From assembly GCA_900319505.1 (NCBI GenBank), contig ONOV01000022.1, positions 1 to 28,593 of the forward strand: 28,593 bases of DNA, read 5' to 3'. Shown piece by piece: positions 20,355 through 26,716 of the stretch; position 1 is the stretch's first letter, and each line of letters begins with the position of its first letter. The notes beneath the pieces were generated by a model that worked only from the letters and a program-made list of their open reading frames with translations, did not search any database and was not told where the DNA came from. This DNA comes from an uncultured Erysipelotrichaceae bacterium (GTDB lineage Bacteria; Bacillota_I; Bacilli_A; Erysipelotrichales; Erysipelotrichaceae). A program made the position numbers and the translations under genes.

Positions 20355-20382
20355 AAAAGAAGAACAGCTTTCACTGCTCTTC
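20355..20382 (-). terminator. Terminator of the hyp operon, overlapping the hypA stop
   Basis: Read leftward, a 9-bp stem (20382-20374 with 20367-20359, one G-U pair), a 6-base loop containing the hypA stop codon, then TTTT. Confidence 0.75.
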
Positions 20383-20730
20383 CTCTGTTTCTGCTTCTAC
20401 TTCCTTGATGATGCATTCATTGCCTGTCAGCAGCCATGTATTGCCGGAATGACAGTACGGGCATTCTCTTCCGTATTTCACGGTTGAATATGTCTTCTCA
20501 CAATCGCCGCAGAATGTGACTGCAGGGGTGATTTCCATCTTCAGTTCACAGTCTTTCAATAAGGGATGTTTCAGACGGAAATAATTCCAGCAGTCAGTAA
20601 AAAGATCTGTAACTATTCCGCTGACTTCGCCTACCTGCAGCGTAACGGAACCATACTTTGTAATACCGTACTGCGGTGCCATCTCATCCAGTGTCTTTGC
20701 GACATGGGTGACAATTCCCATTTCATGCAT
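20371..20730 (-). CDS. hypA: Nickel metallochaperone HypA
   Basis: A 119-residue protein that delivers nickel during maturation of NiFe hydrogenase and some other nickel enzymes. It starts with the invariant MHE (nickel ligands at His2 and the N-terminus) and has the zinc site Cys74, Cys77, Cys90, Cys93. Length matches the family. Its ATG shares one base with the stop codon of the 926-residue oxidoreductase gene, so it is the last gene of the operon. No hydrogenase subunit, HypC, D, E or F is encoded in the window. Confidence 0.93.
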   Translation of the reverse strand: MHEMGIVTHVAKTLDEMAPQYGITKYGSVTLQVGEVSGIVTDLFTDCWNYFRLKHPLLKDCELKMEITPAVTFCGDCEKTYSTVKYGRECPYCHSGNTWLLTGNECIIKEVEAETEEEQ

Positions 20731-23510
20731 TATTTCTTCTTTGCATGAAGCAGAATCTTCATTTCACGCTTTGCCGCATACGGGGCGATCAGCTTCATCT
20801 TGTCTTCTGCCCTGATCATTCTTGTCGCATCCGGCAGATCACGGCTCAGATGAATCGCATCAAACTCACACTTGGTCGTGCATAACCCGCAGCCGATGCA
20901 GCGGTTGACATCCACAGTTGTGGCACCGCAGCCAAGGCATCTGTGGGCTTCTGTTCTGACCTGCTCTTCGGTAAACGGCAGACGGTTATCAGCAAACGGA
21001 TCATCCACTTTGCGTATGCCCGGCGCCTGACGCTTTGCCGTATCATAGGATTCAATTTCAATATCATCCTTGTTCAGTTCATTGAACTGACGCAGATCGC
21101 GGGCAATGGTCAGTGACTGCCCCGGATGAACATATCTGTGCATGGATTCGCTGGCAAGCTTGCCTTCAGCAATGGCATCAATGGCAAATCTGGCTCCATG
21201 ATAGATATCACCGCCGACAAAGATATCCGGTACGGATGTCTGGAAAGTGATCGGATCAGCCGCTGCACATCTGCCCCGGCCAAGTTCAATCTTCTCATCC
21301 TCAGCAATCGTGCCCCATTCGGCCGACTGACCGATGGCCTGCAGCACATTCTCACAGGCAATCGTAATGGTTTCGTCTTCTTTGTACTGCGGGTTGAAAC
21401 GTCCGGTTTCATCTTTGACCTGCGTGCATTTCCTGAAGACAATGGCATTTACCTTACCATTTTCTTCTCTGACTTCCTTCGGTCCCCATCCATTCAGTAC
21501 CTGAATGCCTTCTGCCTCTGCTTCTTTGACTTCATCTTCCGCAGCCGGCATTTCTGCTCTCTGTTCCAGACAGAGCATGGTTACCCTGCCATCTGTGATA
21601 CGGGCTGCTGTTCTGGCAACATCAACGGCAACATTGCCGCCGCCGACTACCACAACATCGCCATGCAGGCGAATGGTATGATCCTGATTCACGCGCCGCA
21701 GGAAGGAAATACCGGATTCCACACCTTCTGCATTTTCACCCGGTACACCGGCTTTACGGCCGCCCTGTAAACCGATGGCAAGATAGAAGGCCTTATAGCC
21801 CTGGTCGCGAAGATCCTGAATGGTGAAATCTCTGCCGATTTCCACGCCGCATCTGAATTCAACACCCATCTGCTTCAGCACATCGATTTCAGCTTCCAGG
21901 ACATCTTTTTCCAGACGGAAGCTCGGAATTCCATTCATTAACATGCCGCCCGGTCTCTTCTCTTTTTCAAAGACCGTGACATCATATCCTCTTTCTCTGA
22001 GGTAATAGGCACATGACATGCCGGCCGGACCGGCACCGATGACAGCCATCTTATAGTCAGGCCCCCAGAAGCCGCCATGATCCGTTTCACAGAGAGGAAT
22101 GTATCTTTCCTTTTCATTCAGCTCTTTTGCCGCGACAAACTTCTTGATTTCATCAATGGCAATCGGCGCATCAATCGTGCCTCTTGTACATTCATCCTCA
22201 CATCTTCTGTTGCATACAGCACCGCATACCGCCGGGAACGGATTATCCTGCTTGATGAGCTTCAGTGCTTCCAGATATTTGCCTTCCCCGGCCATATGGA
22301 TATAGCCCTGCACGGCAATATGAGCCGGACAGGTTGCCTTGCATGGTGCAGTGCCTGTCTCATAGCAGTTGATCTTGGCATCCTCACGGTAATGAATATT
22401 CCAGTCATCTGCCGTCATTCTTCTTTCATCCGGCAGCGGGGAAAGCGGATATTCCATCCTTCCGTGCTTTGTGCAGAGCTTCTGACCGAGCTTGGCCGCC
22501 CCGACCGGACATACCTCCACGCACTTGCCGCAGGCAACACACTTATCATGATCCACATGGGCCCGATATGCACTGCGTGACATGTTCGGGGTGTTATAGA
22601 GCTGGGAAGTACGGATGGCATTGCATACCCCAGGGGCACAATTGCACAGTCCCACAATCTTATCTTCCCCGTCGATATTGGTAGTCTGATGGACAAAGCC
22701 ATGGCGCTCACTTCTTTCACAGATCTCAAGCGCTTCATCCTTTGTGATGTAATGGCCCCGGCCGGTATTGACACACCATTCCGCCAGGTCACCGAAACCG
22801 ATGCAGCATTCCTGTTCGATTTCACCATCGCCTTCATTGCGCATGGTCTGCTGGCGCCGGCATGTACAGACACCAACGGAAATCTTTCCATCATACTTAT
22901 CAAGCCAGTGGGAGATATGTTCCACCGGAACGGATTCATTTTCCGTTTCAATGGCCTTTTCCACCGGAATGACATGCATGCCGATACCGGCACCGCCCAG
23001 CGGTACCATCGGCGTGATGCCTTCCAGCGGCATCTGGGTCATGTAGTTGAAGAAGGAAATGATATGCGGATGTTCTTCGACCAGCTGTTTGTTCATGACC
23101 ATGAATTCGGCAATGCCCGGCACAAAGATCGGCACATCATACTGGATATGATGATCTTCATTTTCACGGTTTGTCTCAACACAGCCAATCCAGCATAAGT
23201 GATCCAGGATTTCCCTGGCATCTTTCTCGGTCAGATGATTGCGCTTAGCCACTTCGGACAGATCCAGATTGGTTCTTGTCTTTTTAAAGCTCAGCATCAC
23301 CCGTACCTCCTGCTTGGTCAGCACTTCATCCAGGCACCATACCTCCGGATCATCAGGCTGGATGGTATGGGTATAGCGGGCAACATAGCGGTCGGTGATC
23401 ATGCCGGCCAGCCGGATCAGAAGTCTCAGCTTCTCCTTGTCCGGGTACACATAGTCCTTGGGGAGAACATAATCGTTCTCATTTACCATTCTGTTTTTCT
23501 GCGGTTTCAT
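20730..23510 (-). CDS. Large FAD/NAD(P)H-dependent iron-sulfur oxidoreductase (GltD-like core)
   Basis: A 926-residue multi-domain electron-transfer protein. In order: a helical/winged-helix-like N-terminus (about 25-115); a Cys-rich domain with CTC at 215-217, CC at 235-236 and CNC-n4-C at 289-296; a 4Fe-4S ferredoxin motif (Cys324, 327, 330, 334); a GltD-type cysteine region (Cys390, 394, 429, 433, 437, 441); the FAD fold with GAGPAG (492-497); the NAD(P)H fold with GGGNVA (623-628) and a second FAD contact GGD (766-768); then CLGC (858-861) and a last 4Fe-4S motif (Cys871, 874, 877, 881). The core resembles the small subunit of glutamate synthase and NfnB. It lies between hypB and hypA, 19 bases after hypB. 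I keep the ATG at 23510 because AGGAG precedes it; the later Met8 has no binding site. It may supply electrons for a nickel enzyme; this is inference. Confidence 0.8.
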   Translation of the reverse strand: MKPQKNRMVNENDYVLPKDYVYPDKEKLRLLIRLAGMITDRYVARYTHTIQPDDPEVWCLDEVLTKQEVRVMLSFKKTRTNLDLSEVAKRNHLTEKDAREILDHLCWIGCVETNRENEDHHIQYDVPIFVPGIAEFMVMNKQLVEEHPHIISFFNYMTQMPLEGITPMVPLGGAGIGMHVIPVEKAIETENESVPVEHISHWLDKYDGKISVGVCTCRRQQTMRNEGDGEIEQECCIGFGDLAEWCVNTGRGHYITKDEALEICERSERHGFVHQTTNIDGEDKIVGLCNCAPGVCNAIRTSQLYNTPNMSRSAYRAHVDHDKCVACGKCVEVCPVGAAKLGQKLCTKHGRMEYPLSPLPDERRMTADDWNIHYREDAKINCYETGTAPCKATCPAHIAVQGYIHMAGEGKYLEALKLIKQDNPFPAVCGAVCNRRCEDECTRGTIDAPIAIDEIKKFVAAKELNEKERYIPLCETDHGGFWGPDYKMAVIGAGPAGMSCAYYLRERGYDVTVFEKEKRPGGMLMNGIPSFRLEKDVLEAEIDVLKQMGVEFRCGVEIGRDFTIQDLRDQGYKAFYLAIGLQGGRKAGVPGENAEGVESGISFLRRVNQDHTIRLHGDVVVVGGGNVAVDVARTAARITDGRVTMLCLEQRAEMPAAEDEVKEAEAEGIQVLNGWGPKEVREENGKVNAIVFRKCTQVKDETGRFNPQYKEDETITIACENVLQAIGQSAEWGTIAEDEKIELGRGRCAAADPITFQTSVPDIFVGGDIYHGARFAIDAIAEGKLASESMHRYVHPGQSLTIARDLRQFNELNKDDIEIESYDTAKRQAPGIRKVDDPFADNRLPFTEEQVRTEAHRCLGCGATTVDVNRCIGCGLCTTKCEFDAIHLSRDLPDATRMIRAEDKMKLIAPYAAKREMKILLHAKKK

Positions 23511-23529
23511 TATCTTTTTTATCTCCTGT

Positions 23530-24186
23530 TTATTTCCGCCACTCTTTCAGTGTGCTTTCAAGCCAGTCCGTCCATTCCGCCATGCCTTCTTCTGTTTTTG
23601 CAGAAAGCGGGAAAATGGCAATATCAGGATTGAGTTCTCTTGCATATTTCTGACAGCGTTCCAGATTGAAATCAAAATACGTCATGGTATCAATCTTGGA
23701 TATAATCAGCACATCGCTCTTCTGAAACATCAGCGGATATTTCAATGGCTTGTCGTCCCCTTCCGGTACGCTCAGAATCATGACATTCTTTCCTGCTCCG
23801 GTATCAAATTCTGCCGGACAGATCAGATTGCCGACATTTTCCAGAAAGATCAGATCATTCTTCTCTTTCATGTTATGCAGTGCTTCTTCTGTCATGCCGG
23901 CGTCCATATGACACATGCCGTCGGTATGAACCTGAATGCTTTCTGCCCCCAATGCTTCAATGTGCCTGGCATCCACATCCGATTCAATATCCGCTTCCAT
24001 GACACCGATCTTATACTTATCCTTCAGCGCCTGAATCGTTGCACTGAGAAGTACCGTCTTGCCGGAACCGGGTGAGCTCATCAGATTGATGAGCAGAACC
24101 CCCTGTTCCTTCATTTTCTTTCTGATTTCATCCGCATCACGGTCATTGGATGCGGTCACACTTTCATGCAGTTCAATGATCTTCAT
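23530..24186 (-). CDS. hypB: HypB-type nickel-insertion GTPase, copy 1
   Basis: A 218-residue GTPase of the SIMIBI class. P-loop SSPGSGKT (37-44), the metal-site CHMD with Cys92 and His93, and a third metal ligand Cys123 in NLICPAEFD are present. The base-recognition motif reads SKID (163-166) instead of NKxD. There is no His-rich or CxxCGC nickel-storage segment at the N-terminus. HypB passes nickel, with HypA, to the target enzyme on GTP hydrolysis. Its ATG overlaps the end of the other hypB by 4 bases, and a 19-base gap leads to the large oxidoreductase. Confidence 0.9.
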   Translation of the reverse strand: MKIIELHESVTASNDRDADEIRKKMKEQGVLLINLMSSPGSGKTVLLSATIQALKDKYKIGVMEADIESDVDARHIEALGAESIQVHTDGMCHMDAGMTEEALHNMKEKNDLIFLENVGNLICPAEFDTGAGKNVMILSVPEGDDKPLKYPLMFQKSDVLIISKIDTMTYFDFNLERCQKYARELNPDIAIFPLSAKTEEGMAEWTDWLESTLKEWRK

Positions 24187-24854
24187 TTCAGTTTCTCCGC
24201 AATCTTATAATTCAGATAGTCAATCCAGCTGCTGAATCCTTCGCCATTCAGCGCAGAAATCGCAAAGAACACACAGTCCGGATTCAGCGCTCTGATTCTT
24301 TCTTCTGCCTTGGCCGGATCATAGTCAAACACCTTGATGGCATCCATCTTGTTCTCAATGACAACATCTGCTCTTCTGAACATCAGCGGATACTTCAGCG
24401 GCTTATCATCGCCTTCCGGCACACTCAGAATTTCCACCCGCAGATCAGCCCCGACATCAAACTCCGCCGGACAGACAAGATTGCCGACATTTTCAAGAAA
24501 GACCACATCCACATCATCAATTCCCATGGTCATCAGACCTTCCATCGTCATGCCGGCATCCATGTGGCAGCTGCCCCCGGTATGAAGCTGGATAACCTTG
24601 GCTCCGGTCAGCACCTGAATGGTTCTGGCATCCACCGAGGAATCAACGTCCGCTTCCATGACCGCAATGCGCCACTTCTCCTTCAGGCCGTTGATCGTAC
24701 GCACTAAGGTTGTCGTCTTGCCGGCCCCGGGAGAAGACATGACATTGACCAGGTATACTTTCTTTCTTTTTATATAAGCACGGACATCAGCCGCATTCTG
24801 TTCATTCAGCGCTTCTACCCGTTCCTTTACATCAATGATCTCTATATGATTCAT
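24183..24854 (-). CDS. hypB: HypB-type nickel-insertion GTPase, copy 2
   Basis: A 223-residue paralogue of the next gene. P-loop SSPGAGKT (40-47), Cys96/His97 in CHMDAGMT, Cys128 in NLVCPAEFD, and NKMD (168-171) for guanine recognition are all present. The metal- and GTP-binding parts are intact, so both copies should be active. I start at the ATG at 24854, with AAGAGG 8 nt upstream and a promoter 20 bases before; an in-frame codon at 24884 lies before the transcription start. First gene of the operon. The two copies differ at many positions, so the duplication is old or both were acquired. Confidence 0.9.
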   Translation of the reverse strand: MNHIEIIDVKERVEALNEQNAADVRAYIKRKKVYLVNVMSSPGAGKTTTLVRTINGLKEKWRIAVMEADVDSSVDARTIQVLTGAKVIQLHTGGSCHMDAGMTMEGLMTMGIDDVDVVFLENVGNLVCPAEFDVGADLRVEILSVPEGDDKPLKYPLMFRRADVVIENKMDAIKVFDYDPAKAEERIRALNPDCVFFAISALNGEGFSSWIDYLNYKIAEKLK

Positions 24855-24874: not shown

Positions 24875-24903
24875 ATTGTATCAAAGCTCAAAAATACACA
24901 CAA
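24875..24903 (-). promoter_or_regulatory. Promoter of the hypB-hypB-oxidoreductase-hypA operon
   Basis: Read leftward, TTGTGT (24903-24898), a 17-bp spacer and TACAAT (24880-24875). Transcription should start near 24868, giving a 14-base leader to the first hypB. Confidence 0.6.
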
Positions 24904-25591: not shown

Positions 25592-26716
25592 ATGGAAAAA
25601 GCAAAAGTGTACTTTACTGACTTCCGTACCAGAATCGGTGTACCGCTGCCTGCCAAACTGCAGACGCTCATCAGGGCAGCCGGCATTGGAAACATCGACA
25701 TGGATGGAAAACTTGTTGCCATCAAGATGCATTTTGGTGAAATGGGCAACATTGCCTACCTGCGTCCCAATTATGCAAAAGCTGTAGCGGATGTCGTCAG
25801 GGAACTGGGCGGCAAGCCTTTCCTGACCGACTGCAACACCCTCTACCCCGGCTATCGCAAAAAAGCCATTGACCATCTTTATAATGCGGAGGTCAACGGC
25901 TTCAACTGGATGACAACCGGCTGTCCGGTCATCATCGGTGACGGCTTAAGAGGAACAGATGATATTGAAGTGCCGGTCCGCAATGGTGTGCTATGTAAAA
26001 CAGCCTATATCGGACATGCCATCATGGATGCGGACGTATTCATATCATTGACTCACTTCAAGGGCCATGAATCCACCGGCTTTGGCGGTACATTGAAGAA
26101 TATCGGTATGGGCTGCGGTTCAAGAGCCGGCAAGATGCAGCAGCATAACGCCGGCAAGCCTCATGTCATTACCGAAAAATGCCGCGGCTGCCATAGATGT
26201 GCCAGAGAATGCGGTTCAGATGCCATCAGCTACGATACCGGCAAAGCCTGGATCAATCCGGATCTCTGCAAGGGATGCGGCAGATGCATCGGCGCCTGCT
26301 CATTTGATGCCATTGAAAATGACAACTGGGATGCCAATGAAATTCTCTGCAGGAAGACTGCGGAATATTCCCAGGCTGTATGTGACGGCAGACCGTGCTT
26401 CCACATCTCTCTGATTACGGATGTTTCTCCTAACTGCGACTGCCATGGTGAGAATGATGCCCCGATCCTGCCCAATATCGGCATGCTGGCATCCAGTGAC
26501 CCCATAGCGCTGGACCAGGCCTGTGTCGACCTCTGTCAGAAGGCAGAGCCGATCCGCAACTCACAATTAGGCGACAACCTTGCCAAGCCTGACTGGCACT
26601 GCCACCATGACCACTTCATGGATTCCAATCCCAATGTCAGATGGAAAGAGACCCTTGAACATGGCGAAGAAATCGGCCTTGGCACAAGACAGTACGACCT
26701 CATCACACTGAAATAA
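25592..26716 (+). CDS. DUF362 protein with two 4Fe-4S clusters
   Basis: A 374-residue protein. A DUF362-type domain fills the N-terminal half and the C-terminus. A di-cluster ferredoxin insert has Cys197, Cys200, Cys203, Cys207 and then Cys226, Cys229, Cys232, Cys236. The C-terminal part carries more Cys and His (for example CDCHGEN and HCHHDH). The family is common in anaerobes, and its reaction is not established; the clusters imply electron transfer. GAGG lies about 9 nt before the ATG. A terminator follows. It lies next to the hyp operon, divergent, so a link to nickel or redox metabolism is only a suggestion. Confidence 0.85.
   Translation: MEKAKVYFTDFRTRIGVPLPAKLQTLIRAAGIGNIDMDGKLVAIKMHFGEMGNIAYLRPNYAKAVADVVRELGGKPFLTDCNTLYPGYRKKAIDHLYNAEVNGFNWMTTGCPVIIGDGLRGTDDIEVPVRNGVLCKTAYIGHAIMDADVFISLTHFKGHESTGFGGTLKNIGMGCGSRAGKMQQHNAGKPHVITEKCRGCHRCARECGSDAISYDTGKAWINPDLCKGCGRCIGACSFDAIENDNWDANEILCRKTAEYSQAVCDGRPCFHISLITDVSPNCDCHGENDAPILPNIGMLASSDPIALDQACVDLCQKAEPIRNSQLGDNLAKPDWHCHHDHFMDSNPNVRWKETLEHGEEIGLGTRQYDLITLK

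Follow-up and report, generated by a model that had tools for sequence, protein, structure and literature searches.

The closest described relative of the system reported here is IsrA, which a 2023 study put forward as the isoprene reductase of Acetobacterium wieringae and which is encoded beside hypA and hypB (PMC10134865). IsrA is the best-studied member of its family ('clade 9') and is isoprene-induced, and among 988 homologues hypA was nearby at a frequency of 0.73, hypB at 0.56 and DUF5692 at 0.4 (PMC10134865). A. wieringae ISORED-2 is described there as having no [NiFe] hydrogenase, and the six-cysteine site of IsrA, at which nickel has already been proposed, is likened to P-type and double-cubane clusters (PMC10134865). 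The window analyzed here, a stretch of 28,593 nucleotides from an uncultured Erysipelotrichaceae bacterium (contig ONOV01000022.1), carries a minus-strand operon of two hypB genes, a gene for a 926-aa oxidoreductase (OXR) and hypA. OXR very likely belongs to the IsrA family, and the operon joins an already described family that the sequence-only reading of this DNA had not recognized. The explanation as a whole, a HypAB-matured nickel reductase of conjugated dienes, is put forward with moderate confidence. The additions made here, all of them computational, are the genome-wide exclusivity, the His/Gln distinction and the link to a fatty-acid isomerase.

The window operon compared with the IsrA system

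The genes of the operon and the parts of OXR are placed as follows.

24183..24854, minus strand: hypB1, first operon gene, HypB-type GTPase (CobW/HypB/UreG domain); TIGR00073 222.3 bits, PF02492 71.7 bits
23530..24186, minus strand: hypB2, second HypB-type GTPase; TIGR00073 246.6 bits
20730..23510, minus strand: OXR, probable IsrA-family oxidoreductase of 926 aa; Fer4_20, Pyr_redox_2, Fer4
22623..22868, minus strand: proposed nickel/Fe-S site in the N-terminal domain of OXR; Cys215, Cys217, Cys236, His274, Cys289, Cys291, Cys296
22509..22541, minus strand: ferredoxin-type CxxCxxCxxxC motif, residues 324-334; PF00037, cysteines invariant
21126..22370, minus strand: GltD/NfnB-like diaphorase part (Fer4_20, FAD, NAD(P)H), residues 381-795
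20868..20939, minus strand: C-terminal ferredoxin-type cysteines, residues 858-881; second Fer4 stretch, conserved cysteines
20371..20730, minus strand: hypA, nickel metallochaperone; PF01155 93.9 bits, MHE start and two CxxC pairs read from the sequence

The sequence-only reading is confirmed for all four genes and for the junctions between them, and open reading frames (ORFs), Pfam and NCBIfam agree: hypB1 and hypB2 overlap by 4 bases, a 19-base gap separates hypB2 from OXR, and OXR and hypA overlap by 1 base. The start of hypB1 is ATG, with a TTG alternative possible at 24884. The two HypB proteins are 53% identical in alignment and both exceed the TIGR00073 cut-off of 121.2 bits, while HypA is over the PF01155 cut-off (93.9 vs 28.9 bits) and under the stricter TIGR00100 cut-off (64.7 vs 88.1). 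By reading, the known nickel-binding residues are kept in HypA and HypB, and hypB1 retains the CH...C residues of the GTPase nickel site in the HypB alignment. The promoter assigned to the operon earlier does not stand out from background, with one promoter-like site at 24920-24891 (9/12) in a region that has 8 such sites against 6.9 ± 2.6 in shuffles, and the terminator also assigned to it is not borne out, nothing terminator-like being present on the minus strand downstream of HypA. The lack of a hydrogenase, claimed earlier for the window, extends to the organism's own assembly, a metagenome-assembled genome of 1.56 Mb in 239 contigs (92% complete), in which the [NiFe] large subunit family PF00374 has no match. 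Within the window, Pfam scans of 14 ORFs, namely HypA plus 13 of the 39 that reach 150 aa, gave no HypC, HypD, HypE, HypF or hydrogenase, the other 26 being unscanned and HypC/D/E/F unsearched genome-wide.

OXR has the size, core and flanking ferredoxin motifs of the IsrA family, six N-terminal cysteines with the reported spacing, and hypA and hypB nearby. Compared by published description and not by sequence, the two systems share a protein of about 900 aa with an N-terminal region without a named domain, an FAD/NAD(P)H and Fer4_20 core and a C-terminal ferredoxin motif, adjoining hypA and hypB, and no [NiFe] hydrogenase. The two CxC pairs lie 74 residues apart in OXR (Cys215/217 to 289/291) and likewise in IsrA (Cys180/182 to 254/256), and the ferredoxin motif follows the second pair by 35 residues in both, at 324 in OXR and from 289 in IsrA (PMC10134865). 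The gene content differs: two hypA, a single hypB and a separate ferredoxin are found in the isr operon, against two hypB, one hypA and no ferredoxin gene in the window operon.

Residues ~380-865 of OXR form a GltD/NfnB-like module (Fer4_20, Pyr_redox_2), and the closest solved relatives, subunits of the Nfn/Stn bifurcating transhydrogenases and dihydropyrimidine dehydrogenase, match mainly over this part. NfnB/StnB and GltD-type oxidoreductases do not match the N-terminal Cys6/His domain, and none of the 25 NCBIfam families listed for OXR reached its cut-off. HypA and HypB are common to the window operon and to [NiFe] hydrogenase maturation (HypABCDEF). However, an Ech-like hydrogenase locus of a relative (L089) has hypF, hypD and a hypE-like gene together with hypA and hypB, whereas the window operon contains none of these three and no hydrogenase.

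Co-occurrence and linkage of HypA with the N-terminal domain

Two samples that share genomes were compared, 167 genomes of the order Erysipelotrichales and 295 genomes from 120 genera of the phylum. In the order sample, HypA exceeded the Pfam cut-off in 57 genomes and the N-terminal domain of OXR (N-domain) was strongly matched in 52, with 51 genomes having both. The six HypA genomes without the N-domain are exactly those with a PF00374 match (partial, 70 positions), and no PF00374 match occurs in the strong-N-domain genomes of the order sample or in the 11 further ones of the phylum sample. In the phylum sample, 17 genomes have a strong N-domain and 18 have HypA, the latter being the same 17 and one genome with a hydrogenase match; outside the Erysipelotrichales, the HypA and N-domain sets of 11 genomes are identical. 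Among 11 genera compared, 7 contain both states and 0 genomes are discordant. These counts set aside 19 of 76 order genomes with only sub-cut-off HypA matches and the genomes with only a weak relative of the N-domain, namely 2 of 54 in the order search (G020, G163) and 3 of 20 in the phylum search (G020, G246, G258). Three of the six hydrogenase-match loci share one gene cluster (L089-L091), L089 being the only annotated locus of the three. The PF00374-matched protein of L089 is a match for the complex I 49-kDa family as well, a trait of Ech-type subunits.

Five genomes (G009, G019, G044, G072, G056) have HypA but neither a full-length OXR nor a PF00374 match, and each of them has, next to hypB and hypA, a gene for a 367-387 aa ferredoxin that starts with the N-domain. 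These stand-alone ferredoxins therefore point to the N-domain as the common element of the HypA genomes without hydrogenase. In this they are unlike IsrA's ferredoxin, for which the published study reports no HypA/HypB association (PMC10134865). At four of the loci (L087, L088, L194 and L195, in G019, G009, G044 and G072), the ferredoxin, hypB and hypA are followed by an old-yellow-enzyme-type FMN/NAD oxidoreductase, 639-667 aa where complete, with a divergent TetR-like regulator, by reading, at L087 and L088. The ferredoxin and FMN/NAD oxidoreductase set is possibly a two-protein version of the same chemistry.

The conservation of the four-gene order, which the sequence-only reading had raised as a question, is observed in relatives, and the gene set occurs together beyond chance. 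Lactimicrobium massiliense (Erysipelotrichaceae) has the same four genes, and a single-protein scan of genome contigs gave at least 4 loci. Among 34 loci compared, a total that counts the window and two probable duplicate entries, the order hypB-hypB-OXR-hypA is seen in 14 and 2 more are cut by contig ends; hypB-hypB-hypA faces OXR at 4 (L026, L028, L029, L030), a single hypB is present at 2, and 12 have no hyp gene in the available stretch, mostly 1.5 kb of flank. Other arrangements are OXR-hypB-hypB-hypA (L092), isomerase-hypB-hypA-OXR (L108) and hypB-OXR-hypA with DUF5692 proteins nearby (L102-L104, L106). Outside the Erysipelotrichales, hypB directly precedes OXR in all 11 short loci (L144-L146, L148-L154, L157), and in each of these 11 genomes a same-strand hypA follows the N-domain stretch at a distance of ~1.8-1.9 kb. 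When 6 HypA genes from hydrogenase genomes and 5 beside stand-alone ferredoxins are omitted, 44 of the remaining 50 lie within 3 kb of a counted OXR gene, the loci in which hypB-hypB-hypA faces OXR included. Linkage that survives such rearrangement argues for a functional tie between the hyp genes and OXR.

Several observations weigh against this tie. No HypA lies within 3 kb of 29 of 73 OXR genes or pieces (at least 76 were listed; three fragments were omitted, one beside the G122 HypA, counted as unlinked), although all of these except G164 have HypA elsewhere in the genome. G164 (87% complete) has OXR and is the sole N-domain genome without a HypA match. The HypA frame of G056 is short, its Pfam match covering 66 of 112 positions, and the Fisher values for HypA and the N-domain (6e-35 and 1e-26) ignore phylogeny.

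The hyp genes very likely serve OXR, their most economical client, encoded in the same operon, a proposal already printed for the IsrA family (PMC10134865). The earlier suggestion of a nickel-dependent module with no known target is upheld for nickel insertion, and the HypAB set does form one unit with the oxidoreductase; its likeliest client is named here as OXR itself. Gene set, family features, linkage, co-occurrence and conservation are direct observations. As we infer the mechanism, the operon would make an IsrA-family reductase together with dedicated nickel-delivery proteins, of which the two HypB paralogues and HypA would put nickel or a nickel-containing cluster into the N-domain, at an acceptor site of six cysteines (Cys215, 217, 236, 289, 291, 296) and His274. 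Electrons from NAD(P)H would be taken up by the FAD of the GltD/NfnB-like part and relayed by the ferredoxin-type clusters to the Cys/His site, where one double bond of a conjugated diene would be reduced to give the monoene. In these gut bacteria, the likeliest class of substrate would be conjugated fatty acids made by an isomerase of the Propionibacterium acnes (P. acnes) type.

Further genes were observed around the mapped loci, on gene maps drawn with a plain longest-ORF rule, under which some short genes do not show. In the window, a DUF362 protein with two ferredoxin motifs is encoded at 25592-26716, two genes off and on the other strand; a relative is present at only 1 of 43 other mapped loci (L111), so it is not a conserved neighbor. 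At L111 (G029:C1, 9891-13839), ~3.9 kb of DNA with two IS3-like transposase genes (rve domains) interrupts the OXR gene of a relative between residues 148 and 150, and hypB and hypA frames lie beside that gene. DUF5692 membrane proteins occur near OXR genes at L095 and L102-L106, five of the six in one clade. At L102 and L104 (G035, G112), a membrane protein of 233-234 aa with a His-rich loop lies between hypA and DUF5692; both proteins are transporter-like (PF13386, 28.4 bits vs cut-off 24.9 for L102) and resemble nickel transporters of the NicO/UreH type. By reading, a CopA-like P-type ATPase lies near the hyp genes at L001, L084 and L114, with a CsoR-like gene in two of them.

The isomerase neighbor and the candidate substrate

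A flavoprotein homologous to PDB 2b9w (E 3.9e-114) is repeatedly encoded near OXR genes. The PDB entry is named 'putative aminooxidase', and we take it to be the polyunsaturated fatty acid isomerase of P. acnes. The P. acnes isomerase is described as turning linoleate into trans-10, cis-12 conjugated linoleic acid (CLA) (PMC13365329). The homologue would be a partner enzyme and not the reductase, and there is none in the window. It was found in 19 of the 167 order genomes, all 19 of which carry the N-domain, and in 11 of the 19 it lies within 5 kb of an OXR gene. Three of these 11 are codirectional with OXR at 26-34 bases, five are divergent at 278-310 bases, one is 1.1 kb away with hypB and hypA between, and two are codirectional at 2.8-4.0 kb; in G006, isomerase, hypB, hypA and OXR all run in one direction. 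In a tree of 56 OXR rows, including 9 of the 11 isomerase-linked genes, the linked rows stand at several places, with at least 3 changes on well-supported branches.

The reaction itself probably is the hydrogenation of conjugated double bonds, and perhaps of those in dietary fatty acids. A. wieringae strain Y is reported to reduce isoprene and 1,3-butadiene at one of their double bonds and not to reduce ethene, propene or fumarate (PMC9765523), a substrate range that fits the reduction of a conjugated diene to a monoene. A conjugated fatty acid as the substrate of OXR is a tentative proposal, at slightly less than even odds. In the own genome, the isomerase gene (L161) is transcribed divergently from a set of acyl genes that encode an AMP-binding acyl-activating enzyme, an acyl-ACP thioesterase-like protein and an acyl carrier protein; at L167 in G132, this acyl gene set recurs next to the isomerase and OXR, together with an amine-oxidase-family flavoprotein and a ferredoxin reductase-like protein. 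Two points weigh against it: 8 of the 19 isomerases have no OXR on their contig, that of the own genome (G000:C30) included, and the isomerase link of the window's OXR runs through relatives. OXR may instead reduce dienes other than fatty acids, such as terpenes, isoprene-like hydrocarbons and others, with the isomerase link holding only for paralogues; this is a real possibility, somewhat less favored than the fatty-acid reading, and it agrees with the isoprene induction of IsrA (PMC10134865), with the missing isomerase beside the window's OXR gene and with a separate OXR clade whose link is to DUF5692. The window's clade, however, has three isomerase-linked proteins as its sister group (support 86, below the 95 mark), and the acyl genes that adjoin the own-genome isomerase also speak for fatty acids.

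The candidate may have a counterpart in the biohydrogenation literature. A genomic survey of butyrivibrios had to leave the fatty acid oxidoreductase out of its searches since it was in no database, although a sequence had been reported (PMC4478896), and the CLA-R sequence of Butyrivibrio (Fukuda 2007) is cited in two papers (PMC4478896, PMC2654759). A literature search outside preprints and most subscription journals gave, among the papers listed, nothing that joins the IsrA family to linoleate metabolism.

The Cys/His site, its metal and other nickel enzymes

Residues 1-294 of OXR match no Pfam family. Across 18 diverse reference proteins, the extremes of which are only 19-20% identical, Cys215, Cys217, Arg218, Cys236, His274, Cys289, Asn290, Cys291 and Cys296 are invariant among others, and the histidine lies 38 residues past the third cysteine, or 39 in 5 of the 18. 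The site residues are also invariant, bar one incomplete row, in 160 distinct strong sequences, which remained from 120 database proteins and 107 locus segments after identical ones were removed; His274 is present in all 160, the HypA linkage of the database proteins among them not being known. Six weak relatives, Cys-rich ferredoxins of ~420-430 aa (L158, L159, L160, L191-L193), keep the six cysteines and have Gln at the His274 position in 6 of 6 when 38 residues are counted from the third cysteine, while the profile alignment gives Gln in 4, a gap in 1 and His in 1. In G020, G163, G246 and G258, only this Gln form is present and HypA is absent. The Gln in these HypA-independent relatives nominates His274 as a candidate nickel ligand. 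The His/Gln difference would count as one event and not six, as the six weak relatives look like one family.

No solved fold matches the N-domain significantly. Its sequence profile gave only short or weak matches among sequences of solved structures (repeat proteins and the like), and a fold search with the AlphaFold2 model of the N-domain (mean predicted local distance difference test, pLDDT, 69) gave nothing at E < 0.015, the top ranks being mostly MarR-like winged helices. With the full OXR model (mean pLDDT 79), the best 50 matches are all to proteins that share the diaphorase part. Model confidence is high in the diaphorase and in the helical part at the N terminus and poor in parts of the Cys/His region. 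Spatial clustering of the site is taken from the published IsrA model, for its six cysteines only (PMC10134865).

Nickel at the N-domain site is somewhat more likely than not. Against it stand the pLDDT values under 50 at residues 166-198, 293-304 and 307-317, around part of the site, and the published account, which leaves nickel at the IsrA site to future biochemistry (PMC10134865). The six cysteines, moreover, are kept in HypA-independent relatives, and this, like the published comparison of the Cys6 site with P-type and double-cubane clusters, would suit a delivery of metal to OXR that involves no catalytic nickel but zinc, cobalt or the assembly of an all-iron (double-cubane/P-type) cluster. 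Such an alternative appears unlikely in view of the nickel-binding residues retained by HypA and HypB and of the split between His274 in the strong sequences and Gln in the HypA-independent relatives.

Other nickel enzymes were considered as clients, and those that the sequence-only reading had singled out for a check in the own genome gave LarA on another contig, no urease match, and a sole Prismane match that is a fragment of a hydroxylamine reductase/HCP and not carbon monoxide dehydrogenase (CODH). Urease occurs in 1 of 62 HypA-plus-domain genomes and the Prismane family in 7 of 62, the six besides the own fragment being unclassified, and a [NiFe] hydrogenase is rejected as client on the PF00374 results given above. 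LarA is present in 27 of the 167 order genomes, 8 of the 27 without HypA; of the 51 HypA genomes that lack a hydrogenase match, only 19 have it, which argues against LarA as a general client. An arrangement in which HypAB work for a different nickel enzyme, be it LarA, urease, CODH or a hydrogenase missing from the 92% complete assembly, and OXR is a mere neighbor is very unlikely, even though the own genome has LarA and LarA is associated with HypA over the 167 genomes (19 of 57 HypA genomes, Fisher p 3e-5 with no phylogeny correction), perhaps via a shared genus.

HypA and HypB without a hydrogenase are easily mistaken for remnants. In the two overlapping samples, their presence is accounted for by a hydrogenase match or by one uncharacterized Cys/His domain, which points to one more nickel enzyme class and to the exact residues to test. 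At its broadest, the proposal is that widespread Cys6-His Ni-Fe-S ene-reductases, matured by dedicated HypAB, act in gut bacteria downstream of a P. acnes-type isomerase, which would supply the conjugated diene, and carry out the reduction in polyunsaturated fatty acid biohydrogenation, and that His274 marks the nickel-dependent members as opposed to an all-iron Gln branch; in this full form, it is possible but somewhat doubtful. Through its recurrent isomerase neighbor, OXR becomes a concrete candidate for the enzyme that reduces conjugated fatty acids during biohydrogenation in gut and rumen.

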